Positions 1,216 to 63,369 of a DNA stretch of 64,000 nt are shown here, in pieces. The position numbers and the translations under genes were made by a program. Location of the stretch: NCBI RefSeq assembly GCF_016097555.1, contig NC_054706.1, positions 48,840,160 through 48,904,159 on the forward strand, read 5' to 3'. Positions within the stretch are counted from its first letter, which is position 1. Each line of letters begins with the position of its first letter. The DNA is from Gigantopelta aegis (lineage: Eukaryota; Mollusca; Gastropoda; Neomphalida; Peltospiridae). The notes beneath the pieces were generated by a model. The model worked only from the letters and a program-made list of their open reading frames with translations, was not told where the DNA came from and did no database searches.

Positions 1216-1915
1216 TTTAAAGTTTGTTTTGTTTAACGACACCTCTAAAGCACAGTGATTTAGTAAAGGGACATGCCTGAGTTTGCTACATTATAAGATG
1301 TTTCTGACTAATAAAATATTTCTGCGATTAAACTTACATATTAAATATATTTATTTTATTTAGAATATCATTACCTCTATATTTAACGTGTTTCTGGTCG
1401 TCTTAATATTTGTAAGAAGCCCAAACTGGACTTTGTTTTCAAATAATTTCGTACGTAAGAAAAAATATATTTTAGGAAATAAAATGAAATTTAACCTAAT
1501 ACAAATATTAGAACGATCAGAAACACGTTTAATATACAGCCACTAATATATTATGCAGAAAAATATATTTGATATGTAATTACAATCGTTAAAAAGTATT
1601 TGTTAGTTGATAACATCTTAAAAATTACAGCAAACTCAGGAATGTCCCTTTAAGCATCGGCTATTGGACGTCAAACATTTGGTAATTTTCAAACAGTCTT
1701 AGAGGAAACCCGCTACATGTTTTCATTAGTATCAAGGGATATTTTATATGCACCATTCAACAGACCGGGTAGCACATACCACGACTTTTGTTATACCAGT
1801 CATAGTGCACTGGCTGAAAAGAGAAGTAGCCCAATGGGCTCACCAACATGGATCGATCTTAGACCAACCGCGCCTCAAGCGAGCGCTTTACCACTGGGCT
1901 ACGTCTCGCCCCTAT
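1216..1915 (-). repeat. SINE, family D, split by a MITE
   Basis: The tail (aaagtttgttttgtttaacg) lies at 1216-1262. After the interrupting TTAA MITE the body and head resume at 1654 and run to the tRNA-like head near 1915 (complement of ggcgagacgtagcccagtgg). The MITE therefore inserted into an already resident SINE. The + ORFs at 1717-1939 only translate this repeat. Confidence 0.8.
1267..1649. mobile_element. TTAA-type MITE (piggyBac-like ends), nested in SINE
   Basis: The ends are AGGGACATGCCTGAGTTTGC and its inverted partner GCAAACTCAGGAATGTCCCT, flanked by GTAA (degraded) and TTAA. The interior is AT-rich and non-coding. Sister copies lie at 19,935-20,349 and 21,123-21,495, with a fragment at 26,396-26,490. 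TTAA target choice and short TIRs suggest mobilisation by a piggyBac-type transposase encoded elsewhere; that is inference. Confidence 0.8.
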
Positions 1916-2101
1916 AAATATTTAATTTGTGTATTGTAGTTAACAGGTGTGTGTTTGATACCATTCTGGGTACTTTAAATCTAATGTCGACATGTTGCAT
2001 GAATTCCTCATGAATAATAATGATATAAAATAAAATAATAAAATGGTCCAAGATATTGAGGTGAAATGCCGCGCATAGCTTTACCATGTAGAGTTACAGA
2101 T

Positions 2102-2305
2102 CAATCTGATTGAAATTAGCTCTACTGGTCTCACCAGTAGACCTAACAGCATTGCGTGGACTCCCATGTCCACTTAACAATTTAAATATCGACCAATTAC
2201 ACTTCGCCTTTTATAGCGTTATTCGGGAGCATACAAATTCTAAAAATATCGGGCGAGACTATTTATGCAATAGGCGAACGTGTTGGTCTATTTCAACATT
2301 GAAAA

Positions 2306-2336
<31 letters not shown>

Positions 2337-2656
2337 GGTGCAATAATAAACTCTGGATTGCATACTAGTATAAACAGATTTTATAGCTATACCATCACGG
2401 GTTGTTTTTTTCCGTCTTGAAACGAATTTTATATAAAATTTTATATTGAAATTAGTTCCGGCATACATCGTAATTCATCCTAATCATTTCGTATACCCTC
2501 GGCATAATCCCGAATGTTTTCAAATTCTTTTCAAATAACTGGCATGATTTTGCAAGTAAGGTTTTGATTGGTCGAATAAAAGGTCAACTGGACATCAGCT
2601 CCAACGGGCTGCTGTTAGATCCACATGTAATAGTGGAGCTAATTTTAATTAGATTG
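2102..2656. mobile_element. Foldback/MULE-like MITE with poly-G tract
   Basis: The ends are CAATCTGATTGAAATTAGCT and its inverted partner AGCTAATTTTAATTAGATTG. The flanks agttacagat and aattaccgat match at 8 of 10 positions, consistent with a 9-10 bp target duplication. The interior shares 'ttcgccttttata' and 'aaaatatcgggcgag' with the copy at 49,332-49,966. An uninterrupted G run of about 28 nt sits at 2311-2338. No transposase is encoded. Confidence 0.75.
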
Positions 2657-2721
2657 AATTACCGATCAAGTTTGACTTTCACAACAATATACCTATTTAT
2701 ATTTACGGTCAAATCATTTCA

Positions 2722-2986
2722 TTCATTTCAACTTATTTTCGTGCTTATATCTAGTTCAACACGCTGTCCTGGGCACACCTCAGCTATCTGGGTTGTCTGT
2801 CCAGGACAGTGGGTTAGTTGTTAATTGTTAGTGGTTAGAGAGCGAGAACAGAGTGTAGTGTCCTTACACCTACCCATTGAGTCGTTAAAACTCGCTCTGG
2901 GTGGGAGCCGGTACCGGGCTGCGAACGCTGTACCTACCAACCTTGTGTCCGATGGCCTAACCACGACACCACCGAGGCCGGTGGTG
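2722..2986 (-). repeat. SINE, family C
   Basis: The complement shows ccaccggcctcggtggtgtc, then the body with 'accggctcccaccc', and a 3' tail ending aagttgaaatgaatgaa. It is a close match to the copy at 148-384. Confidence 0.8.
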
Positions 2987-4149
2987 AAATCAAGTTTGGC
3001 TGTGGTGGGAATTTATTCAAGGGAAATAACTGTCAAATGAAATTTACGCATGCTTGACTGAGTTATGGCCCTTGAACTTAGGTGATAAAAAAATATATTT
3101 GAGTCGACAGTGGACATATATTGCTTTAGCAGTACGTCTTTTATAGATGAAATATATTGTTTCCCTAAGAAACTACCGTACACACGTAGTCAGTTTGATG
3201 TCATTGTGGCGTAATTCTTACACCTAGCTAATGTTATAAGGCCTACACCTGGAAGATGTAACGATGTCATATAATCTCTTTCAAAGATTCTGTGTTTGTA
3301 TGGTATTATTTTATAAATTTGTAACAAGGAACTTTACGGTTGTTATTAATGTTCTATTTGTTTTTCTTATCCACATAGTTCGAGATATTCAGGAAAATAT
3401 AACCAGTATGACCCACGTGTGTCATAATGATTTCACGTGCATAACAAATGACGTAATTTTGTGAAGCGACGTCATAACTTAGGGGAAATGATACTATTCG
3501 GTCAAAATTTAAAAGTTATTACACCTTCTTGAAATTTTTACATATTATAGATATATCCTTATATTACTGGAATGCCCCCAAAAAGTCATAGGTCACCGGA
3601 AACATTTTTGATCCACGGTCCATAAAGTGAATAGGTGTATGAATCACAATGACGTTTCCTGTTTTCTGTGTGTAGCCTAATTAATCATGTTTTATATCCA
3701 TTGACCGTATTTAATTTTAAACTTTTCTGTAATGCAACAAAGAGAACATTAGTTGTGGTACTTAAAATGACACCTAGCAGACACACACGTGCATATCTTC
3801 ACTACTAAAATGGAGTTTTACATACATGGGAACTAAAGAAAATAGTGACTTTTTAAAACATTTACTGACTATTTACTTTACAATTGTATACAGGATCTAA
3901 AATTCATTACACCTTTTCAATTTTTGCACATACAGTAATGCTGGGTGAGTAAATCAATATAAGATAATAAAAATGTACTGTCAACGATGAAAATTTTTTA
4001 CAGTCGGAGCTTGAAATACCCCATACATAGATACAAATTCATTAAAATTCCACCATAAATCGTTTGAGCACTTTTTCAAAAACAAGTTTTATTGGAGTGA
4101 TCAACTATGTTCTTAAAAACAAAAATAGTACAAATAGCATTATTTTCCA
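2987..4149. other. Anonymous AT-rich DNA
   Basis: No supported gene. A short motif, 'attacacctt(c/t)ttgaaatttt', recurs near 3,519 and 3,906. The + ORF at 3264-3464 ends in a C-x5-C pair but has no convincing splice or start context. Confidence 0.5.
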
Positions 4150-4153
4150 TTAA

Positions 4154-4977
4154 AGCCGCACACCCTAGTTCCATCCAGCGAAAATAAATTATAATTTGGT
4201 TAATCTACAAACCTGTAACACACTTAGATCACGTTTTTTATCAAATGGAGTGAAAAAGCAGGTTTTATATCGATAAATACCATGGGAATCCCCATGTCCC
4301 AATTGCTTGAAATAATTTTGAAAGTTAGTATTCTGATGTCACCGGTAGATGTCGCTCGAAGCACAACAATGCCTACGTCACGACAAATTTCACAGACTTG
4401 GGGTGCGTTCCTGTCACCTCTCCTGGACATGTTCTGTCCTGGTTGTATCCCCTCTCCAGATATCGTAAGACTTAGCAAAATTATTGGTTTTAAGGGTTTG
4501 TAACGTTTTGTATTGAGACACTTACTTGTGTGAACTTTATTGTTACTGAAAATGTTCACGAACTGTGAAGAAATATCTCACAAATGAACAACAAGCAAAC
4601 GACAACAAATCGGATGTTGATTGCGCGAACCGTGCACGAGAAAACAAACCGAAACCAAAATGATAACGGTCACGTGGTATACCAACGTCTGTGACGTTTA
4701 CACAGGAAGATTCCCTCTAAAAATAGATTGGACCTCGCTTGCTTAACGGTTTTTTCTCGAGTGCGCGCGGCATTTTAAGAAATACAAAAAATGCATTTCG
4801 TGGTTTTACAAACATCAGGATTACCAGGATTACCAAAAAGCACTTCAGGTGAATGGAAATGTGTATTCTAAATAATAAAATTTAAGTAAAGTGCAATTTT
4901 ATTTGTGAAAAATGGGTTTAATAGCGAAAAACAACGCCGTAATGGTTAACAACTAGCCGTAACTAGGGCGTGTCCCT
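4154..4977. mobile_element. 824-bp TTAA-flanked non-autonomous DNA transposon
   Basis: TTAA lies on both sides (4150-4153 and 4978-4981). The left end AGCCGCACACCCTAGTT pairs with the right end AACTAGGGCGTGTCCCT, giving roughly 17-bp imperfect TIRs. The interior has no transposase; the overlapping ORFs at 4224-4559 (minus) and 4282-4503 (plus) are mutual shadows without recognisable domains. TIR and interior differ from the AGGGACATTCC family, so this is a second TTAA lineage. Confidence 0.7.
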
Positions 4978-5443
4978 TTAAACAAATTCCATTGTGGGTT
5001 TGGTTGGGCCTTGGGTCGGGGTGGAGAATTGGAGAATTGGGGGGGGGGGGGGGAAGGTTATTCCCACATATCTATATCTGGATCTACTGAAACTGATATC
5101 ATAAAATGACCTGCCTGTGAAACATGACGAACTAGTCAAACGGTATTTATTTTTACGTCACTGTGTACCTGCGCGCTACCCCAGTGTAAACGTTTATCAA
5201 AATAACGTCATTGACGTCGTTTGGACGTCTCGTTTTAGTTACGTTCGAAACGTTTTGACATGGTCCTGGTTTGTGATTCATAAAAATAATATTTTCGATA
5301 TTGTGGATAATAAAGAAATTGTTACACTCGCGTATGAACCGTATTGATTTTACGAAACTCGTGTCAGGATTCATTTTACACTCGCTCTCGCTCGGGTAAC
5401 ACAAGAATTCTGACACACGCTCGTAGAATAATCTCTCTGCCCC

Positions 5444-5479
5444 GGTCTCTGTCTCTGTCTCTCTCTGTCTCTGTCTCTG

Positions 5480-5517
<38 letters not shown>

Positions 5518-5550
5518 TCTGAATATATATATATATACATACATATATAT
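5444..5550. repeat. (TC)n/(TCTG)n then (AT)n microsatellite
   Basis: A tct/ctgtct tract runs to 5520, followed by a short TA-rich tract. The long minus ORF (5153-5605) and + ORF (5344-5580) are largely this tract. Confidence 0.9.
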
Positions 5551-5876
5551 AAATTTTTACTAAAACTACCCCGGTATTAAGACCGAATCCAGGACATAAT
5601 CCCACTCAGAAAAAAACACCCACTGGAAAAAAAACCCACTGGAAAAATCCCACCCGGACAAAACCCCACTAACAAATGAAAATAATGGACAAAACCCCAC
5701 TGTGACCATTTTACACATAAAACTGAAAGATATGAAATAAAGTTGACATTTCTATTTTGGAAGAATAAAATTATAAATAAAATTGAAATCGAGATAAAAT
5801 AGATTATGATAAAAAATAAAGTTGACATTTGTATTTTGATTAGGCCAAGTATTACATTGATTTCATTGATCTCTAC

Positions 5877-6125
5877 AGGACTACAGGCTGGTAGGTACAG
5901 GGTTCGCAGCCCGGTACCGGCTCCCACCCAGAGCGAGTTCTTAAGAACTCAGTGGGTAGGTGTAAGGCCACTACACCCTCTTCTTTCTCACTAACAACTA
6001 ACCAACTAACAACTAATCCACTGTCCACAGACATCCCAGTTAGCTGAGGCGTGTGCCCAGGACAGCGTGCTTAAACCTTAATTGGATATAAGCACGAACA
6101 TAAGTTAAAATGAAATGAATGAATA
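5877..6125 (+). repeat. SINE, family C, 5'-truncated, inside MULE
   Basis: Starts inside the head (ctacaggctggtaggtacag), continues through ggttcgcagcccggtaccgg, and ends with aagttaaaatgaaatgaatg. It sits between the left minisatellite arm and the FLYWCH segment. Confidence 0.8.
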
Positions 6126-6243
6126 AGTCATAAATTCTACATCAGATGGATCCCTTATACGGTCCAAGAATACTATGTCATTGTTCATTTCCTGAAAACT
6201 GCCAATACTGATAAAATAAAATACAACTATGTAGGTTATCAAG

Positions 6244-6375
6244 AACAAAAAGGGTGGTCTGAAGCTGATTCATGAAGTCTACTTGTATACCAAGAAGTAT
6301 GCCAGGAAGAATATCCGATGGGAGTGTTCCAGCGGGGCTGCATTTAGTTGTAAAGGCGGTGTCACTTCACACCTG
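6244..6375 (+). pseudogene. FLYWCH zinc-finger segment of MULE transposase
   Basis: Translated from 6244, the segment reads KKGGLKLIHEVYLYTKKYA, then RKNIRWECS, then AAFSCKGG and TSH. The spacing L-x-Y ... W-x-C ... C-x(n)-H is that of FLYWCH fingers, which bind DNA at the N-terminus of many invertebrate MULE transposases. It stops at the edge of an inserted MITE (6376), and no start codon is visible. It lies on the same strand as the C-terminal remnant, so the two are probably parts of one former gene with the DDE core deleted. Confidence 0.6.
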
Positions 6376-6992
6376 GGCCCCGTTATACGAAGGAATTGTA
6401 GCTAAGATTAATTGTAGTAACTCACGGTGAATTTTACAACTTTACAGCCGTTCCACAAAGCAACCTTACGGTAGTCGTAAGTGCCCCTTTAATGATTAAA
6501 ATATTCTTTACGAAGAAGTACGAATTAGTTAAATAATGAATTGGTTACCGACTTTTCGGAACATCTTAGATGTATTCATTGGTATCGGACATCCATAAAG
6601 TAACTTTGTCAGTTTAATTGCTAAACGATAATTGCCGAATGCATAAGACATGAGAGTTATCTCCCGTACTTTCGTGTGAAAGTCTATGGCCTAGAATGTT
6701 ATTTCATCGAACACCGAGTTTTATCAAAGTTATTTTCTATATATTAGATCCATTTTTATACAAAAAGTTAGTATACTTAGAAAATGACAAAATCATCATT
6801 TAACTACCATTTGACAGCTACGTTAGTTACTTACAACTGCTTCGTACCTATTGTAAATTTTCACAGTAATTTACGACGATAGTAAGCTACGCCACGTCGT
6901 GGAACGGACTGGCGATCGTAGACAAAAATTAAGGTCGCGATGGTAGGTATTTACGGCTTAGTAGTGCTAAGATCACTTCGTGGAACGGGGCC
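6376..6992. mobile_element. 617-bp palindromic MITE inserted in MULE
   Basis: The ends are GGCCCCGTTATACGAAG and, inverted, GGCCCCGTTCCACGAAG (two mismatches). CTG flanks both sides (6373-6375 and 6993-6995), consistent with a 3-bp target duplication. Internal copies of the end motif (gccgttccacaaagc near 6450 and gtcgtggaacggac near 6893) give a nested palindrome. No ORF of note. Confidence 0.75.
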
Positions 6993-6995
6993 CTG

Positions 6996-7656
6996 GTCGT
7001 TTCCACCATTGACACACCTATAGATGTACGGGCAGAACTCGGTAAACCTGATCACATCAGACGCTATCGGGAAGAGGAGGATGTCAAGTTTTTCTGTGGC
7101 ATGCTTGGTGGACTGGCATTCCTACCAGTTGATGATTTACCAGAGGGGGTGACCTATCTGCGTGAGAACACCTCTGATGAGCTGGAACCCTTGCTCGAGT
7201 ATTTCGACAGCACATATATGTCAGGATCTTATCGCCGTATTCAGCCTCCTCAACAATCATATGGACCTGTCCCCCCCCCCCCTCCTCTTCGTATGCGCCG
7301 TATCCCCCCCCCCCCCGCCCGTGTACGCACCATCCATCTGGAATGTGCACACCATCACATTGGAAGGTGTATCCAGAACCAACAACATATGTGAAGGGTG
7401 GAACAATTCTATTGCAAAACTAGTTGGACACGCTCACCCAACCATCTGGGGAGCCACAAATAGAATTCGGAAGGATCAAACCCAGGTCGCTACTGCACGA
7501 CTTTAGAATCAGCATGGTGAACGACCTGAAAAACGTGTACGACACTATACAAAGAAGGTGCAGACTAAGCTCCACAACCTCTGCACTGGCAGATGTGATA
7601 ACATCCATTCCCGAAGTACTGAAAGGCATCGGCCACTGTGTGAGGTGGAAGTAGAT
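6996..7656 (+). pseudogene. MULE transposase C-terminal remnant
   Basis: Reading frames here show IRRYREEEDVKFFCGMLGGL, LAFLPVDDLPEGVTYLREN, EPLLEYFDSTYMSGSYRRI, IWNVHTITLEG, RTNNICEGWNN and LVGHAHPTIW, then EKRVRHYTKKVQTKLHNLC near the end. The T/N-N-x-x-E-x-W-N block, the G-H-x-H-P block and the basic tail are typical of the C-terminal half of FLYWCH-MULE transposases in molluscs and other invertebrates. At least two frame changes are seen, around poly-C tracts at 7269 and 7304 and near 7505. The catalytic DDE core is not present. Confidence 0.7.
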
Positions 7657-7756
7657 ATATTGTATTTGCTACACTTGTTTGAATAAAAAAGAAATACTCC
7701 AGATAAGATTTTGTTATATATTGAGATATGTGAGTGAGGTTATGTCCAAGTGTTGT

Positions 7757-8187
7757 TTTTTTTCCAGTGGGGTTATGTCCGGGTGGGTTTTTCTCCAGTG
7801 GGGTTATGTCCGGGTGGGTTTTTTTTCCCAGTGGGGTTATATCCGGGTGGGGTTTTTCTGTGTGGGGTTTTGTCCGGGTGGGTTTTTTCCAGTGGGGTTA
7901 TGTCCGGGTTTGTTTTTTTTTCTGTGTGGGATTATGTCCGCGTGGTTTTTTTCCAGTGGGGTTATGTCCGGGTGTATTTTTTTCCAGTGGGGTTATGTCC
8001 GGGTGTATTTTTTTCCAGTGGGGTTATGTCCGGGTGGGTTTTTCTCCAGTGGGGTTATGTCCGGGTGGGTTTTTTTCCCAGTGGGGTTATATCCGGGTGG
8101 GGTTTTTCTGTGTGGGGTTTTGTCCGGGTGGGTTTTTTCCATTGGGGTTATATCCGGGTGGTTTTTTTTCCAGTGAAGTTATTTCCG
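7757..8187 (+). repeat. G/T-rich minisatellite (unit about 31 bp)
   Basis: Repeats of CCAGTGGGGTTATGTCCGGG plus TGGGTTTTT, with variants 'gtgtggggttttgtccggg' and 'gggttatatccggg'. A longer block containing both variants occurs twice (near 7,785-7,905 and 8,040-8,150), so a higher-order duplication is visible. Three overlapping + ORFs here are repeat translations. The same motif occurs inverted at 5589-5705. Confidence 0.85.
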
Positions 8188-8769
8188 TTTACCGTTCGAC
8201 CATTATGACCATAAAGGGACATAACTTCCCCAGACAAAATACTCACTGTCAGTTTGTGATGGAATGGACATAAACCGGCTGTATTTATTTTAAGAAATTA
8301 CCCCTAACGAATATACAAGGATGGACGTATTACATCCCATGAATATTTGGGTAGTATATGAGAAAGAAGCCCTACCTGTTAACATAATCTATCTATTTGT
8401 AAATATGCATATCGAGTGATGAAATAAAAACGTGCCATTTAAACCTTAATTGGATATAAGCAAGAAAATAAGTTGAAATGAATGAATGAATGAATGAATG
8501 AATGAACAGTTTCATTTTCATACATGGCTTACATTTAAAATGATGTAAATGATGGAAAACCTTTACTATGTGAATAAAATGCTATACCAATGAGAACCTA
8601 CTCACCATTACTTTTACTGTACGTTCTAAAAAACCAGTCTATTGTCCAACTACTAGTAAGTTATCTTCCTACTGCCAATAGGTGTTTTTTTCTAGGATAA
8701 AATACACTTCTTTATTTCTTTAGGTGTGAATTTTACAATCGTTTGGCCTATTCATCATAGGACTGTTTC

Positions 8770-57926: not shown

Positions 57927-57932
57927 TACATT
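57927..57932 (+). repeat. Target site duplication, left copy
   Basis: TACATT, identical to 63,364-63,369. A 6-bp duplication is the Polinton norm. Confidence 0.85.
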
Positions 57933-58033
57933 AGTAGTAGAGGGGCCTGTTTGGAGTCATGACCTACTGACCTACTTTCTCGTGACCTACTGACCTACTT
58001 TCTCGTGACCTACTGACCTACTTAGACAAGACC
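57933..58033 (+). repeat. Left terminal inverted repeat
   Basis: AGTAGTAGAGGGGCCTGT, then about three direct copies of a module containing GACCTACTGACCTACT, two of them followed by TTCTCGT, ending 'cctacttagacaagacc'. Only a couple of differences from the right TIR outside copy number. Confidence 0.85.
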
Positions 58034-58604
58034 ACCGAGCGTATAAAAAGTACTGTCCTTGTTCATCTACATAATATGAAGCTATTTACCTCCAAACAAG
58101 GAATTACCCTACCGTATCGTTTCGTTATGTAAATTAAATTAGAATTATTTCTACATACGTCTTGTGGTTTAATGGATAGAGCGTAGTGAAATTGTTTGTT
58201 TTTTTTGTTTTTTTTAAATAGGTTTTTCCTTCTTATATAAATCTATAGTTGTTTATTCTCTATTTGTTAGGTATACAAAACAAAATTTCATTAATATAGT
58301 AAGTAGGCCCGACTGAATGTGAATAAAAAATTGCGGTATTGAATTTCTAACAGTCACGCGTATTAAGGTGTGTGAGTGCGTGTGTGGTCCTTAACCATAT
58401 GTCCGTATAACCGTAAAATAAAATATATTGAGTAAATAAAACATTTCCTTCCTCGTAAAATAAAGATTAATTGAACACAAATATTTTATTTTGTTTTAGT
58501 CATAGGAAAAGAAAAACATATTTGTCTCGAAGAAAGGAATGTTTGTTAAAAAGAAAGGCATGTGTTAAGGAGAAGAAAGGAATGTTTGTTAAAGGAAGAA
58601 AGGA

Positions 58605-58653
<49 letters not shown>

Positions 58654-58990
58654 ATCCCAGCCCATTGCTTTGAAGAAAGAACGCGTGACTGCAACTCAAC
58701 GCTCCAACCTAACCTATGATCTTCTAACTGCATTTTAAACAAAAGTATTTTCCTAGAGTACAAGCCTTTATAGACAACCAGTGTATTATGTCTGGTATAT
58801 CAAAGGTCGTGGTATGTTCTGTCTTGTACACACAGCTCTTGCTACTATAAAGTAGCGGTAGAAATATCCAATCACAAATCTAGTCATAGAGTACAAAACA
58901 CAAAAAACAAACGCAATGGTTTGGTTTTTCATTTATTTCTAAATTACAAATCACTGACACATATATAAAATGGGCACACATTGGGTTACA
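58034..58990. other. Left arm of the element, with host-like repeats
   Basis: Contains an eroded SINE B tail (about 58,375-58,455), a 40-bp SINE core fragment (about 58,793-58,832) and (GT)n (58,607-58,649). No supported ORF. These show either later insertion or uptake of host repeats. Confidence 0.55.
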
Positions 58991-59030
58991 TCGAGAGGCC
59001 TTAGGGGCGACATGTGAATAATATTAGTGT

Positions 59031-59309
59031 TCATTTCTCTTCATCTTCGTCCTCATCATTAGTATCATCATCATCGGTATCGACGTCGTCTACTTCGTCC
59101 AAATATTCGCCGATCCAGGAACGATACTGATTTAATTTAGAACGAATATGTGGTCTCACATCTCTGTCTGGATTCACAGACTGTAGAATTTTTCTCGTGT
59201 TGGGGCCTTTGTCAAAGTAATGCATATAGGTCAGAAAGCGAGAGTACGTGTCTTTAAATAACTTCCATTGTAAAGTCTTCATGTTTCTTTCGATGGCATC
59301 TTGGGACAT
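59031..59309 (-). CDS. Fossil element part: acidic-tailed small protein
   Basis: 92-codon stretch. An ordinary N-terminal part (ERNMKTLQWKLFKDTYSRF, then RPHIRSKLNQYRSWIGEY) is followed by an Asp/Glu tail. No family recognised. It lies on the same strand as, and downstream of, the ATPase. Confidence 0.45.
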   Translation of the reverse strand: MSQDAIERNMKTLQWKLFKDTYSRFLTYMHYFDKGPNTRKILQSVNPDRDVRPHIRSKLNQYRSWIGEYLDEVDDVDTDDDDTNDEDEDEEK

Positions 59310-59443
59310 GTTTTTTTCTTCGTAGCGTTTTCTTTTGCTTTCGATATAGTCATGCTTGATGTCAATTCACGTTCCACCATGAGACGAATGCCTTTGTTTT
59401 CCAGGTCGGGCGACAGCTCTTCTTCTTTTTCATTTCCCTCCTC

Positions 59444-59644
59444 TCACGTTTTAAATCGCAAGTCGCTTCCGTCTTTAAAGACCAGACCACACGTATCGCA
59501 AGACTGCATCCTCTTGACTTTTTTCAGATAGGGTTCCACCTCATCTTCTTCTTCGTCGTCACTTTCGTAGGCGGGTATGCCTGGTAGTTTTCTTTTGAAT
59601 GCGTTTCTTTGCATGTAGAGCTCTTTCTTCGTCGGTGGCTGCAA
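59444..59644 (-). CDS. Fossil element part: small Lys/Asp-rich protein with CxxC
   Basis: 66-codon stretch overlapping the end of the ATPase segment. It has a basic N-terminus (KKELYMQRNAFKRKLPG), an acidic middle and a C-x2-C pair (CDTCG). No family recognised. Confidence 0.4.
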   Translation of the reverse strand: MQPPTKKELYMQRNAFKRKLPGIPAYESDDEEEDEVEPYLKKVKRMQSCDTCGLVFKDGSDLRFKT

Positions 59645-60287
59645 CTCTTCTGAGACATTCGCCGTTACGTTCGTGCCATTTATACCATTCGGACGGCCCC
59701 GTCTCTAAACCATTAGGTCGAAGGCGCCAATGTTCGGGCGTGGTCGGTTTCAAGTCCAACAAGAGATATCCGTAGGGCCTGTGGGTAGCTTCCTCAAACC
59801 GCTGCATGAAATGACGAGTATTTCCAGGATACATCTGCTGTGCCAAGGTTAGGACTTGCTGCTTGTCGATGGGGTTGTTGAACAGTGCCAGGTAATGACA
59901 ATTTCTTCTCTGTGTCGGGTCCTTGCTGTGATACAGGTTCTGGTTGATGGCAGTCACAGAGAGGTTTCTGTGGTGACTTCCTTCCGTGAACAGGTCGGTG
60001 ATGCGAGGGTCTTTTCCAGCTGTAGACATCAGGTCGTCCAACACGATGAAATTTCTGACTCTCGAATCCAAATAACGATCCTTTTCCAAATTCTCGGGTA
60101 TGCCTTGAACAAATTTCACTCGAGCAACCATTTTGATAGTATCGTAGAGGGGTTGCCATCGTTTGTAGAGCCAAATGATGCGCTGGGGAGGCGGCTGGAT
60201 TTTACCATCCCTTAGCAGTTTGTACAACAAAAATGTCTTTCCACACGACGTGGGTCCCGACACGAACATGGTGAACAGATGTAACAA
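59559..60287 (-). CDS. Fossil element part: FtsK/HerA-type packaging ATPase
   Basis: A 242-codon stretch. Walker A is at residues 11-18 (GPTSCGKT) and Walker B at 80-85 (FIVLDD). Further family blocks are PPPQRIIWLYKRWQPLY (33-48), FTEGSHHRNLSVTAINQN, HYLALFNNP, LAQQMYPGN and RPYGYLLLDL. These are characteristic of the genome-packaging ATPases of Polintons, adintoviruses and related invertebrate elements, which pump DNA into capsids. The tail is strongly basic (KKRIQKKTTRHTR), unlike most relatives. A C2H2-finger-like and CAG-rich stretch lies just upstream on the same strand. Confidence 0.8.
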   Translation of the reverse strand: MLHLFTMFVSGPTSCGKTFLLYKLLRDGKIQPPPQRIIWLYKRWQPLYDTIKMVARVKFVQGIPENLEKDRYLDSRVRNFIVLDDLMSTAGKDPRITDLFTEGSHHRNLSVTAINQNLYHSKDPTQRRNCHYLALFNNPIDKQQVLTLAQQMYPGNTRHFMQRFEEATHRPYGYLLLDLKPTTPEHWRLRPNGLETGPSEWYKWHERNGECLRRVAATDEERALHAKKRIQKKTTRHTRLRK

Positions 60288-60295
60288 TCTTAGGG

Positions 60296-60296
<1 letters not shown>

Positions 60297-60329
<33 letters not shown>

Positions 60330-60412
60330 ATGTTAATGCTGATGCTGCTGCTGTTGTTGTTGTTGTTGTTGTTGTTGATGCTGCTGCTGCTGTTGCTGCT
60401 GCTGGGAAGACT
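60297..60412 (-). repeat. CAG/CAA trinucleotide tract inside the element
   Basis: On the minus strand CAG, CAA and CAT codons alternate for about 115 bp, as in a polyglutamine linker, between zinc-finger-like sequence (CRICEK region, about 60,480-60,510) and the ATPase. Confidence 0.85.
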
Positions 60413-60562
60413 TATTTTCAGATTCCAAGAGTCCATGTTTATTTCGTACGTGCCGAGTTAGGTCGTGGGTCCAAACATATCATTTTTCGCAAATGCGACA
60501 CTGATTCATGTTGTTGACTGTTGAAGTGTTCGACGTGAACTGGCGATGTTGAAACTGCCATG

Positions 60563-60577
60563 CCCACTTTTATAGCC
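60563..60577 (-). promoter_or_regulatory. TATA-type promoter box (GGCTATAAAAGTGG)
   Basis: GGCTATAAAAGTGGG on the minus strand, about 55 bp before an ATG at 60,509. Nearly identical to 62,577-62,591. Confidence 0.6.
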
Positions 60578-60580
60578 TTC

Positions 60581-60922
60581 TCAGAAATGCTTGTGCCGTT
60601 TTTGCCCAGTCTGCTCTGGTCGTTTCTGTTCCACGCCACTCTGTTCTCGTTTCCGTTTCAGATCGGCCATGGCTTGCTCTACCACCTGTTGCGTTGGGGA
60701 GACCATGACGATTTTGGGTGCCGGGGGCTTGTTCTGTTCCTCTTTTTCTTTTTTCCACGTGGGATCATAGAGTTCTAGACATCGATCCACACTGTACATG
60801 ATCTGGCTTTTCCCACCACGTTGAATTTCGAAGTGAGGTTGAAGTTTACCTTGTGCCTGCAGTTTATAGAAACGGGTCCACTTATCCACGTCGGGTACAT
60901 ATAACTTGTACTGGTCTGACAT
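60581..60922 (-). CDS. Fossil element part: small basic-tailed protein
   Basis: 113-codon stretch starting MSDQYKLYVPDVDKWTRFYK. The N-terminal half has an ordered look (DKWTRFYKLQAQGK, SQIMYSVDRCLELYDPTW). The C-terminal third is rich in Lys/Arg/Gln (ADLKRKREQSG). Such size and charge recall minor virion or DNA-binding proteins of Polinton-like elements, but no family is recognised. Confidence 0.5.
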   Translation of the reverse strand: MSDQYKLYVPDVDKWTRFYKLQAQGKLQPHFEIQRGGKSQIMYSVDRCLELYDPTWKKEKEEQNKPPAPKIVMVSPTQQVVEQAMADLKRKREQSGVEQKRPEQTGQKRHKHF

Positions 60923-60939
60923 GTTGCTCCTCTGAAGGT

Positions 60940-61464
60940 TCTACCTCAAATGACGAGTTTTGAAAACTATTTTACTAATATACCTACTTCCTGTGACTTT
61001 CTCGTGCTATTTTAACATTTGAATTTGTGTCTGTCTGTCACACAGAAGTATCAAACGTAAATGAACTTTCTCTCTCATCTGATTAATAAACTTTCCACCC
61101 AGGATCCCACTGTGCCAGCCGAGGAACACACTCAGGGACACATATTTACACTAGAGGGACACATTTTAGACTGGAGGGACACATGCAGGGACACACTTAC
61201 ACACTACCCTACTTTAGCTATGGATTTTGGGAAAAAAAATATACCAAGTAAAGTAAATCCATCGAGATACCGTTCCCCCCGAGACATAATTCTTAACTGG
61301 CCTACAGGTCATAAAGTCATGATATTTATAAATAACGAATTCATAAGATACAACACACAATTTTATTACTAAACAACAGATTCAAAAATGTAGAACATAA
61401 AATATATGACAAAACATACAGTTATGACAAAAACATTTGAGTGTCTCACGCGTGTTTGAAACAT
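60940..61464. other. Element spacer without supported gene
   Basis: Contains a short direct repeat set built on 'agggacaca(c/t)' (61,136-61,195) and a 103-codon + ORF that I do not support. Confidence 0.45.
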
Positions 61465-61761
61465 TTAATGTCTAAACACGTTATTCACATAGGGACATCT
61501 TGGAGAGAGTCTGTAATGTTCCATCACTGGGTCGTCCATTCTCTGCCATCGGTAGGCGCGTAGTCCACAACAGTAACAGACGACGGCATCGTGATCTCCC
61601 GTGTAGTAGAAACCGGCCTTGGCGAGCTCCCTCGGTTTCTGGCGTAACTGTATTGACCACCACCCAAATGTCTGCATCCGCGTGTAGACGTGGCGCATTT
61701 CGGGACGATGGCAGAACAAGTAAGGTCTCACTACACAGATCACTTCCGGGTGACAGTTCAT
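61465..61761 (-). CDS. Fossil element part: BIR-domain (IAP-like) protein
   Basis: A 98-codon stretch with a BIR zinc fold at residues 31-89: TFGWWSIQLRQKPRELAKAG, then GFYYTGDHDAVVCYCCGL, then MDDPVMEHYRLSPRCPY. The zinc ligands C62, C65, H82 and C89 have the exact C-x2-C-x16-H-x6-C spacing. There is one BIR and no RING, so it is a minimal IAP. In viruses such proteins blunt host cell death; a capture from a mollusc host is plausible but not shown. Confidence 0.8.
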   Translation of the reverse strand: MNCHPEVICVVRPYLFCHRPEMRHVYTRMQTFGWWSIQLRQKPRELAKAGFYYTGDHDAVVCYCCGLRAYRWQRMDDPVMEHYRLSPRCPYVNNVFRH

Positions 61762-62195
61762 TCATCACGGTCCACTATAGTTCCTAATTGTGACACATGT
61801 TATGGTTCACATATTCACTTCTAGGAAATGGTGAAGAATTAAAACAATATGTATGTTTAATGGTAAGCCTTCTGGCTGTATTTTGCCCATGTTATTTTGT
61901 AATATTGTGCATCGACCTTTTAGGACATGGGGTATATAGCGCAAGTGACAGCCGGAGTGAATCGGTTAATGAACCACCTGTTCGGACCGGTACTACAGCC
62001 AGATGCGGTCATATAGCAAAAAACTGAGACGGAAATGTTCTCAATTTTGGAGTGAAAATAAATGCTTATATAATGTATGTTCGCAATGGTGTATGTTGTT
62101 GGTGCCAACGAGAACCCGTTCTATGGGCAATCTTCGCTTGAAGTTGGGCAGTTTAACACGGGTTTCAATGGCAGATGACATCTGTGTAGTGAGAC
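61762..62195. other. Element spacer without supported gene
   Basis: Opposed short ORFs (76 codons plus, 62 minus) have no recognisable features. Confidence 0.4.
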
Positions 62196-62471
62196 CTAAC
62201 GTCTCGAACAGCAGTCTTCATCATCCCAGGCAGCGTCTGTTTTATATTCTCGAGCTGCATCTGTTTGATCCACGGTTTCTTTGATTTCACCATCTTCATT
62301 TTCATCCATATTGTCACAGGCAGCATCCGTTTGATCCGTGAAATGTTCTTCTGGTTTGGTAGCCACTCTTTTACATTTGATTGTATGTCTTTCTGAACAT
62401 TTGCAGACCAAGACGTCGTCCTCGTCGCTACTGCTGCTGCTACTAACACTGCTCGAATATCCCGATGCCAT
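62196..62471 (-). CDS. Fossil element part: Ser-rich acidic protein
   Basis: From the Met at 62,471 (MASGYSSSVSSSSSSDEDD) the stretch has a C-x-C pair (VCKCS), two QTDAA repeats and an acidic body. A TATA-like box lies about 110 bp upstream (62,577-62,591). The longer start at 62,528 is also open. No family recognised; the acidic Ser run suggests a phosphorylated regulator, which is speculation. Confidence 0.45.
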   Translation of the reverse strand: MASGYSSSVSSSSSSDEDDVLVCKCSERHTIKCKRVATKPEEHFTDQTDAACDNMDENEDGEIKETVDQTDAAREYKTDAAWDDEDCCSRR

Positions 62472-62576
62472 CTTCTTCGTTCCAGATAGAGTGCAACAAG
62501 ACACAAGAATGTTAGAATCATAAAACACGTCTGCTCCCTAGGACAGTCGTAAAAGAAATGACGTTTATATCACAAA

Positions 62577-62591
62577 CCACTTTTTATAGCC
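62577..62591 (-). promoter_or_regulatory. TATA-type promoter box (GGCTATAAAAAGTGG)
   Basis: GGCTATAAAAAGTGG on the minus strand, differing from the box at 60,563 by one extra A. It lies upstream of the Ser-rich acidic protein. Confidence 0.6.
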
Positions 62592-62603
62592 AAACAATTT
62601 CTG

Positions 62604-62891
62604 TTACCACCAATGGCACTCGTTCGGGTTGCAGAAGTTACACTGTAGGAATCCCATCTGATTTTGATGGTCGTCTTGCATGGCGCAGGGCACGATCGAG
62701 TTCAGATCTTGTACAAAGTCACACATGACTGCGAAACAGTCATTGAGTTTCTCCCATTGGTCTAGGTGAAGAAAAATTCCTTTCTTCGATGGCTTGATCG
62801 CGTCATCGCACCACCACCACTGTCGAATGTCTACACCGACAATGTTGTTATCCACGCTCACGTACACGTTGGACCCAATATGACGAGACAA
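62604..62891 (-). CDS. Fossil element part: PC4-like domain, copy 2
   Basis: 95-codon stretch. Residues about 6-50 read GSNVYVSVDNNIVGVDIRQW, then KPSKKGIFLHLDQWEKLNDC, matching the PC4/Sub1 fold (beta strands ending in D-I-R-x-[WY], then K-P-x-x-K-G-I-x-L and a helix starting W-x-x-L). PC4 domains bind single-stranded DNA and help transcription. The C-terminal part has C-x2-C-x4-C (CNFCNPNEC). Confidence 0.65.
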   Translation of the reverse strand: MSRHIGSNVYVSVDNNIVGVDIRQWWWCDDAIKPSKKGIFLHLDQWEKLNDCFAVMCDFVQDLNSIVPCAMQDDHQNQMGFLQCNFCNPNECHWW

Positions 62892-63132
62892 CTTCTCCTC
62901 TTTCCTTTCCTTTAAGACTGCAATGGGGGCTCTTACTCGTACACAGGTTTACCCAGTGTTTAAGGGTTAGTGCAATACCTCGCTTCGTGGGTAAAGTGGC
63001 ATTTTCGTCGTCAAATCTCCTGATGTGAATGGCAATGTCCCCTTTCCGCAGTTTGGCCACAACGTATACGTTACTTCCAAGTTCTATCTTGCATCTCGTA
63101 TCGATATTGCTTCCACTTGTCGAACAGGCCAT
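62848..63132 (-). CDS. Fossil element part: PC4-like domain, copy 1
   Basis: 94-codon stretch. LGSNVYVVAKLRKGDIAIHI, then RRFDDENATLPTKRGIALTL and KHWVNLC, again matching the PC4 strand-strand-helix core (I-x-I-R-x-[FWY], P-T-K-R-G-I-x-L, W). It opens at the element's right edge, about 75 bp inside the TIR, behind a TATA-like box (63,195-63,202). Confidence 0.65.
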   Translation of the reverse strand: MACSTSGSNIDTRCKIELGSNVYVVAKLRKGDIAIHIRRFDDENATLPTKRGIALTLKHWVNLCTSKSPHCSLKGKERGEVVSSYWVQRVRERG

Positions 63133-63194
63133 GTCAAATGAATACAGTTCTCGTTCGTACAGAGTGAATGTAGTTACTAACGAAATACCCGATG

Positions 63195-63202
63195 TTTATA
63201 TA
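63195..63202 (-). promoter_or_regulatory. TATA-like box of the first element gene
   Basis: TATATAAA on the minus strand, 63 bp upstream of the ATG at 63,132 and immediately inside the right TIR. Confidence 0.5.
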
Positions 63203-63208
63203 ATCTCA

Positions 63209-63363
63209 GGTCTGGTCTAAGTAGGTCAGTAGGTCGGGTCAGTAGGTCAGTAGGTCAGTAGGTAGGTCTGGTCAGTAGGTCACGAGAAAGTAGGTCAGTA
63301 GGTCAGTAAGTCACGAGAAAGTAGGTCAGTAGGTCATGACTCCATACAGGCCCCTCTACTACT
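63209..63363 (-). repeat. Right terminal inverted repeat, expanded
   Basis: The complement starts AGTAGTAGAGGGGCCTGT and holds more GACCTACT modules than the left TIR (155 against 101 bp), ending in the matching 'cctacttagaccagacc'. Confidence 0.85.
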
Positions 63364-63369
63364 TACATT
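63364..63369 (+). repeat. Target site duplication, right copy
   Basis: TACATT, identical to 57,927-57,932. Confidence 0.85.

Follow-up and report, generated by a model that had tools for sequence, protein, structure and literature searches.

A multicopy family of short Polinton-related elements with a packaging-type ATPase of their own in Gigantopelta aegis, probably dependent on full-size helpers

The window analysed here, a stretch of 64,000 nucleotides from Gigantopelta aegis, contains an element of 5,431 bp (57933–63363) with AGTAGT/ACTACT termini (AGTAGTAG...CTACTACT) and terminal inverted repeats (TIRs). The TIR arms (57933–57999 and 63297–63363; 67 nt, 97% complementary) extend as tandem AGTAGGTC-type repeats: the left-hand TIR, which is the right end in gene orientation, occupies 57933–58023 together with 23-nt tandem repeats, and the right-hand TIR with its repeats 63218–63363. 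The element is flanked by a perfect target-site duplication, TACATT (57927–57932 and 63364–63369; 6/6 bp). TIRs, termini and duplication are all present as described in an earlier note on this sequence. That the ends are beyond chance was seen in a genome-wide search with the window TIR, which gave 51 partly overlapping matches, with 39 distinct starts kept for distance counts. Positions 58024–59030 form the non-coding right-end region, of which about 1.84 kb present in a relative (L044) are gone from the window copy at approximately 58051.

All recognisable genes of the element (PC4, BIR, U113, ATPase2) lie on the minus strand. The PC4-like gene (62607–63132, minus strand; E 1.7e-6) has a broken frame in the window copy; two PC4 domains were found in L044. 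The BIR gene is split by a nested MITE-like insert of 473 bp (61724–62196; 17-nt TIR GGTCTCACTACACAGAT, TAA duplicated) into a 5′ part (62200–62471, minus strand; the "91-aa ORF", with a Ser/acidic N-terminal region) and a 3′ part with the BIR (IAP) domain (61465–61761, minus strand; E 6.6e-22), the frame of which begins within the insert. U113, a 113-aa protein (60581–60922, minus strand), contains no Pfam domain and has three database relatives, one from Gigantopelta aegis itself. ATPase2 is a gene relic (59031–60509, minus strand; start at 60509 read by eye) with the layout C2H2 finger, polyQ, A32/FtsK-type ATPase, second C2H2 finger and acidic tail. The ATPase-domain frame, taken from its first ATG (59559–60269, minus strand), has 620 homologues at E ≤ 0.001; the N-terminal part contains premature stops, frame breaks follow the ATPase domain, and the frames at 59031–59614 belong to the tail of the same gene. 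The one-strand set of PC4, BIR and ATPase reported earlier was thus recovered, with its six parts reduced to four genes. Queries with integrase, penton, protease and PolB gave no match to the element at E ≤ 1 and the MCP query a chance match only (E 0.25), in line with the previously noted absence of PolB, integrase, protease and capsid genes from this copy; the full-size ATPase query picked up the ATPase2 frame at 38%, and a PHROGs search returned nothing below E 0.069. The window copy is a relic, with its right end shortened, its BIR gene split and its ATPase and PC4 frames broken.

Twelve short elements with both ends were found in the genome, and 11 of these carry ATPase2 in the common order PC4 – BIR – (integrase in three) – U113 – ATPase2. 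Their 6-bp duplications are perfect and differ in letters in nine cases, match at 5/6 in one and are not assessable in two; L031 and L044, inserted at different sites, align colinearly over their whole length. The short form has thus been inserted repeatedly as a unit, with its own target-site duplications and without core genes. The compact, probably helper-dependent lineage proposed in the earlier note therefore stands as to its Polinton-type ends, its compactness and its being more than a one-off, but not as to a lineage length of 5.4 kb: eight of the 11 ATPase2 elements measure 6.3–7.9 kb (two of the eight lengthened by nested inserts), and the window copy has lost its 1.84 kb. Integrase, rightly reported as missing from the window copy, is kept by three of the 11 lineage members and persists as a remnant in one more (integrase loci beside ATPase2: L034, L035, L039 and L049; remnant in L040). 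Penton adjoins ATPase2 only in L049, where the penton gene is broken. The twelfth two-ended element (L032) lacks ATPase2 and contains a penton remnant; it is evidence that simple deletion derivatives exist. The same gene order was found with a second TIR subfamily (L052, duplication TTTATG; L056 + L054). Five abundant copies were sampled; of these, L051 shows fold-back arms, and in L053 no U113 was seen within 1.2 kb. Of the 150 ATPase2 matches, just 9 have a window-type TIR match within 10 kb; the probable reason is that, where an end could be read in the sampled abundant copies, it belongs to another TIR subfamily.

Window-type TIRs also bound full-size loci (L036/L037 and L042/L043) with rve-chromo integrase, PolB and capsid-type genes, which answers in the affirmative whether full-size elements share the TIR. 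Two complete full-size Polintons of this type, 15.3 and 18.5 kb long, share TIRs, PC4, BIR and the right end with the short elements, and add capsid, protease, PolB and ATPase1; PolB was confined to the full-size ones among the fetched loci. PC4 and BIR thus occupy the same end in full-size elements, so that the combination of ATPase, BIR and PC4 singled out earlier is not special as such, the ATPase alone being peculiar. In the full-size loci examined (two complete, two partial), ATPase1 was present and ATPase2 was not seen. In the full-size loci L036 and L047, U113 sits between the penton and MCP genes, which is the PW position of Mavericks (PMC8097293). Aligned pieces of short and full-size ends are 73–97% identical (longest left-end pieces 86–89%, longest right-end pieces 83–94%). 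Supported branches of the right-end tree (13 rows) force three changes between full-size and short form; in the left-end tree (15 rows) full-size rows occupy two spots, yet only one change is forced. By TIR search, end alignments and trees, the short elements therefore have the same ends as an autonomous-type element of the genome, as expected of a satellite.

Judged from pN/pS, ATPase2 is under purifying selection. The ratio was 0.30 over codons 1–197 in nine of 13 copies (shifted frames 0.76 and 1.53), the four with broken alignments (L031, L038, L045, L048) being left out, and 0.52 when all 13, broken ones included, were pooled. Five further copies, chosen from high-scoring rows and not randomly, gave 0.06–0.29 (10 pairs), and 126 of the 150 scored matches have no internal stop. 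Close pairs gave about 0.45–0.9, which indicates weak or no constraint after insertion. Ratios for the other genes were 0.17 for BIR (10 chosen copies; 0.23 over all 18 aligned), 0.23 for U113 (10 chosen; 0.39 over all 16) and 0.20 for the tail (nine chosen; 0.33 over all 13); since the BIR and U113 sets include full-size copies, their constraint need not stem from the short elements. Little constraint was seen for U91 (0.69, 18 copies) and PC4 (0.70, 17 copies).

We consider it probable that the element in the window is a decayed copy from a multicopy, non-autonomous mini-Polinton family which has its own packaging-type ATPase, depends on a helper and is satellite-like. Possessing such a motor and neither capsid nor polymerase genes, the mini-Polintons appear to parasitise larger, virus-like elements.

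The main rival is that the mini-Polintons arose by passive deletion from a capsid-bearing full-size lineage missing from the sample, in which ATPase2 is the element's own packaging ATPase and in which selection left its signal; we regard this as unlikely, though deserving serious weight. It was addressed by the genomic distribution of ATPase2, of which at least 150 matches exist. No scored MCP match (92 in all) was seen within 20 kb of any of the 150, whereas 45 of the 78 ATPase1 matches, taken as control, have one within 10 kb (several MCP or ATPase1 matches can be fragments of a single gene, so that 92 and 78 count matches, not genes). In the scored set, ATPase2 and capsid genes thus lie apart; as scoring covered 150 of 1866 ATPase2 and 90 of 269 MCP candidates, a source element with both capsid genes and ATPase2 may have escaped notice. 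The 58 ATPase matches of the control search below 57% identity were divided, by judgement on identity and frame length, into a third ATPase group of 25 and a remainder of 33. Of the third group, 10 lie within 20 kb of an MCP match, nine of them by a second MCP clade (about 41–48% identical) and one by the first; none of the 33 does so, and 10 of the 33 coincide with positions counted among the ATPase2 matches. An ATPase2 donor among the scored capsid-bearing lineages was accordingly rejected, the second clade adjoining the third ATPase type instead. A deletion origin would also fit the retention of integrase and penton in some copies and their loss in others, as well as mussel P0021, an annotated protein that combines a related ATPase with an adenovirus-type protease (Peptidase_C5, E 2.4e-7), so that the ATPase family is not satellite-only everywhere. 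It is opposed by the full-size loci examined, in which ATPase1 and no ATPase2 was seen, and by the mini-Polinton order, which recurs in independent insertions and with two or more TIR subfamilies.

Less probable still is that the mini-Polintons are capsid-less transposons, in which ATPase2 would act in DNA replication or mobility within the cell, with integrase supplied in cis or by relatives and no packaging. The lack of capsid genes, the integrase kept by some members and the C2H2 fingers flanking the ATPase domain, which suggest DNA binding, agree with such a role. The finger following the domain reaches the Pfam cut-off, and a second precedes the domain in several aligned relatives. Against this role stands the assignment of ATPase2 to the A32/IVa2 packaging class: Pox_A32 was found in 16 of 23 aligned family members at E ≤ 0.01 (in L044 with 23.4 bits against a cut-off of 22.8), and a viral fold search weakly listed A32-like and IVa2 ATPases, none at E ≤ 0.001. 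So does the retention of U113, which adjoins a capsid gene in full-size elements. A PDB fold search with the ATPase model (pLDDT 73) gave no match at E ≤ 0.001, a PDB sequence search for relatives nothing informative, and scans of viral and genome contigs no confirmed relative. ATPase2 is 36–38% identical to full-size ATPase1, and the ATPase tree separates the two lineages with a 100/100 split; frame breaks cause L038 and L048 to be misplaced in the DNA tree of ATPase2. Relatives in bivalves (Mytilus, Mercenaria, Mya, Ruditapes) are mostly 55–70% identical.

That the window copy is a mere internal-deletion product of a full-size element, with no short lineage behind it, is very improbable. It did lose 1.84 kb relative to L044, and L032 documents that such derivatives occur, but the lost part is non-coding and its loss came on top of the mini-Polinton structure; simple deletion was rejected on the order common to 11 two-ended elements and the absence of ATPase2 from the full-size copies examined. 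An unrelated cut-and-paste DNA transposon that gained viral genes, which short size and TIRs alone would fit, can practically be dismissed, as the same TIRs bound the 15.3- and 18.5-kb Polintons, the (AGT)2//(ACT)2 motif and 6-bp duplications are Maverick features (PMC8097293) and the Pfam scan of window frames revealed no other transposase. Neither outcome named beforehand as refuting the short lineage, all other copies being full length or the TIRs belonging to an unrelated transposon, was thus observed.

A mini-Polinton retains the left and right ends of a local full-size Polinton (TIRs, PC4, BIR, U113 and the non-coding right end), and ATPase2 replaces the core genes, namely MCP, protease, PolB and ATPase1 and, in most copies, penton and integrase. 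In the favoured satellite reading, replication, integration of most copies and any virion would be provided in trans by full-size Polintons recognising the same TIRs; copies that keep an integrase may not need a helper for integration. Mobilisation by a full-size helper is inferred from the independent duplications of the short form. ATPase2, by its A32/IVa2/FtsK class, would most likely drive or divert packaging of satellite DNA into helper-made particles, and PC4 (single-strand DNA binding) and BIR (anti-apoptotic) would likely be accessory functions common to satellite and helper.

Polintons are thought to be viruses, yet particles had not been observed (PMC8097293). A conserved packaging-type ATPase in capsid-less elements is indirect evidence that Polinton packaging happens and offers a way to test it. 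If correct, a satellite layer is added to Polinton biology, and counting "Polintons" via ATPase genes may mostly count satellites in the Gigantopelta aegis genome. The literature searched, passages of PMC8504770 and PMC6431247 included, yielded no account of a family of this kind; Repbase and non-PMC preprints, which may hold non-autonomous Polinton entries, were outside the scope of the search.

Mavericks have an (AGT)2//(ACT)2 terminal motif and 6-bp duplications, and intact vertebrate copies measure 12.7–24.6 kb (PMC8097293). Mini-Polintons resemble them in these ends, in TIRs, duplications and an A32-class ATPase, and the local full-size Polintons in TIRs and end genes, but are mostly 6.3–7.9 kb long (window copy 5,431 bp), lack PolB, MCP and protease, have penton in one ATPase2 locus only and integrase in some, and carry an ATPase of another lineage than full-size ATPase1. 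With internally deleted copies and MITEs, as non-autonomous DNA transposon derivatives, they share the reliance on another element's enzymes via shared ends; they differ in being more than a pair of ends, since they retain conserved genes, of which one is subject to purifying selection and missing from the full-size relatives examined. Several bivalve ZnF-ATPase proteins have the same C2H2 – low-complexity – ATPase – C2H2 architecture, the comparison being one at protein level, and one mussel protein including a protease. Virophages and polinton-like viruses are likewise small dsDNA elements with an A32-class ATPase, integrase in some and dependence on a larger element; they encode their own capsid, which mini-Polintons lack. 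Phage satellites such as P4 and PICI are small parasites that have their own packaging-related gene and use a helper's particles. Mini-Polintons, known here from sequence alone, resemble them in the proposed way of working only, and are not members, being eukaryotic and having different proteins. Tentatively, a large satellite population in an animal genome, exploiting virus-like helpers via its own packaging motor, may be the eukaryotic counterpart of phage-satellite packaging piracy, with a satellite ATPase that apparently outnumbers, and stands apart from, the capsid genes of its helpers.

The element at 57933-63363 (5,431 bp) starts with AGTAGTAG and ends with CTACTACT; its terminal inverted repeats (TIRs) have arms of 67 nt with 97% complementarity, and TACATT is found on either flank. 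Pfam matches were obtained for BIR (E 6.6e-22) and PC4 (E 1.7e-6), while the ATPase frame alone gave Pfam matches below cut-offs only; its database homologues at E ≤ 0.001 number 620, of which 120 were listed. Nested inside the BIR gene is a MITE-like insert of 473 bp (61724-62196); its TIRs measure 17 nt (GGTCTCACTACACAGAT) and TAA is duplicated. Compared to L044, another short copy in the host genome, approximately 1.84 kb of the non-coding right end is missing.

The 1.149-Gb host assembly was searched with the TIR, yielding at least 51 matches, some in overlapping rows. Twenty match regions were read, comprising 11 short two-ended elements, 2 full-size elements (two parts each) and 5 one-ended regions. 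Including the window copy, 12 short two-ended elements of 5.4 to ~10 kb were thus available, some of them enlarged by nested transposons, e.g. a DDE_3 frame in L038; by eye, a similar-looking frame is nested in L048 and a reverse-transcriptase-like one in L033. ATPase2, the zinc-finger ATPase of these short elements, is present in 11 of the 12, and L032 carries integrase and penton remnants instead. Perfect 6-bp duplications flank 9/12 (L033: 5/6 letters; L031 and L034 not assessable), and since their letters vary between copies, they represent separate insertions. End-to-end colinearity of L031 and L044 shows that insertion of the short form as such happened more than once. Reduction is graded: in L049 a broken penton copy and an integrase adjoin ATPase2, other copies have kept the integrase only, and from others both genes are gone.

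The same TIRs bound two full-size elements, one of 18,473 bp (L036/L037) with the target-site duplication (TSD) TTTGTT, the other of 15,283 bp (L042/L043) with 5/6 TSD letters. A third, L047, of which the left part was read, has the order PC4 - BIR - integrase - penton - U113 (a 113-aa protein) - MCP - protease, with ATPase1 (the ATPase of full-size Polintons) and PolB on the strand opposite to the other genes; its integrase is rve plus chromo. Integrase and PolB were named based on Pfam; penton, MCP and protease are presumed from position, size and resemblance, the penton and MCP frames having no Pfam match and the protease frame a sub-threshold one to Peptidase_C48 (E 0.014). U113 is present in L036 and L047 and was not found in L042. 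The full-size loci read (two complete; L046 and L047 in part) all carry ATPase1, and no ATPase2 is seen in them. The short elements are Polinton-ended units, repeatedly inserted, with a conserved ATPase not in the full-size elements read. Their ends are 73-97% identical to full-size ends in aligned pieces (longest pieces: left end 86-89%, right end 83-94%). Full-size rows stand among the short ones in the right-end tree, where supported branches force 3 label changes; the left-end tree needs two, one of them forced. This pattern suggests that ends were exchanged or that recruitment was repeated.

For ATPase2, pooled pN/pS was 0.30 (codons 1-197, 9 of 13 copies), compared to 0.76 and 1.53 in shifted frames, and 0.52 when all 13 copies, with the broken ones, were pooled. 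By pair, values were mostly 0.2-0.35 for distant and about 0.45-0.9 for close copies. Five further copies, chosen among high-scoring rows, gave 0.06-0.29 in 10 pairs. These values indicate that ATPase2 was maintained during spread of the family and decays after insertion. BIR (0.17 in a chosen subset, 0.23 over all copies), U113 (0.23 and 0.39) and the ATPase tail (0.20 and 0.33) look constrained in the chosen subsets, but the sets for BIR and U113 include full-size copies. Little constraint was found for PC4 (0.70) and the N-terminal part of BIR (0.69).

For the ATPase, a longer relative reached Pox_A32 with 23.4 bits (cut-off 22.8), and 16 of 23 aligned members matched it at E ≤ 0.01. A structure model built on this 23-row alignment (pLDDT 73) returned A32-like and IVa2 packaging ATPases from a viral fold library, 0 of them at E ≤ 0.001, and a PDB fold search gave nothing at E ≤ 0.001. 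In a midpoint-rooted tree, eight ATPases of short elements group in a single fork (89/99), with 21 relatives next to it; their split from ATPase1 has full support.

Among the abundant ATPase2 copies sampled, L052 and L056 together with L054 have TIRs of a diverged subfamily and the gene order of the other short elements. The L052 element (reverse-complement coordinates 1694-8609; TSD TTTATG) is seemingly nested in another short element, between BIR and U113. U113 and ATPase2 were both seen in L055; L053 has ATPase2 without U113 within 1.2 kb. In L051 (3619-6472), ATPase2 lies between inverted arms of 773 bp, 98% identical, which match the 3' region that the ATPase2 gene has in the short elements; this is either a fold-back (or inverted-duplication) form or an artefact of the assembly. 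The annotated host protein P0123 ('putative inhibitor of apoptosis') appears by eye to be a chimera of BIR, U113 and ATPase-tail pieces from such elements, so element genes may account for some of the IAP expansion in molluscs.

The family is probably best read as helper-dependent mini-Polinton satellites with their own packaging-type ATPase. PolB, integrase and capsid would be supplied by full-size Polintons, and ATPase2 may favour packaging of satellite DNA. The main rival, which we consider rather unlikely, is that an unsampled capsid-bearing lineage is the origin of ATPase2 and the site of its selection. In its favour, the ATPase of the mussel relative P0021 reads into an adenovirus-type protease. 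In the genome-wide search a portion of the candidates was scored on either side, which makes the satellite reading slightly less probable and the rival more so: the best 150 matches, not a random sample, of 1866 loose ATPase2 candidates (which do not equal copies; 126/150 without internal stop), and 90 of 269 MCP candidates, giving 92 matches in two clades, some being pieces of one gene. None of the 150 lies within 20 kb of these MCP matches, the nearest at 43.8 kb. A control search with the full-size ATPase gave 136 matches, 78 at ≥ 57% identity, of which 45 are ≤ 10 kb from an MCP match. By our own grouping of the remainder, 25 short frames (35-39%) form a third ATPase group, 7 of them ≤ 10 kb and 10 ≤ 20 kb from an MCP match, and none of the other 33 (31-44%, mostly longer frames; 10 in the ATPase2 list) is near one. 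A second Polinton lineage, with an MCP ~41-48% identical and the third, short-frame ATPase type nearby, was also noticed.

In the PMC literature searched, no description was found of mini-Polintons that form a family and carry an ATPase of their own. Tlr had at one time been proposed to derive from Polintons as a non-autonomous form (PMC4028283), fragmented Mavericks of 600-4500 bp occur in a midge (PMC8504770), and a Maverick table row gives 1.69% and 1.93% in two columns (PMC8905726). In some viruses, virion genes of adenovirus type are combined with replication genes of other kinds, and a clam adomavirus has a packaging ATPase (PMC11071296). In vertebrate Mavericks the genes follow one another as integrase - minor capsid - PW - MCP - protease (PMC8097293); by this order, U113 occupies the position of PW.
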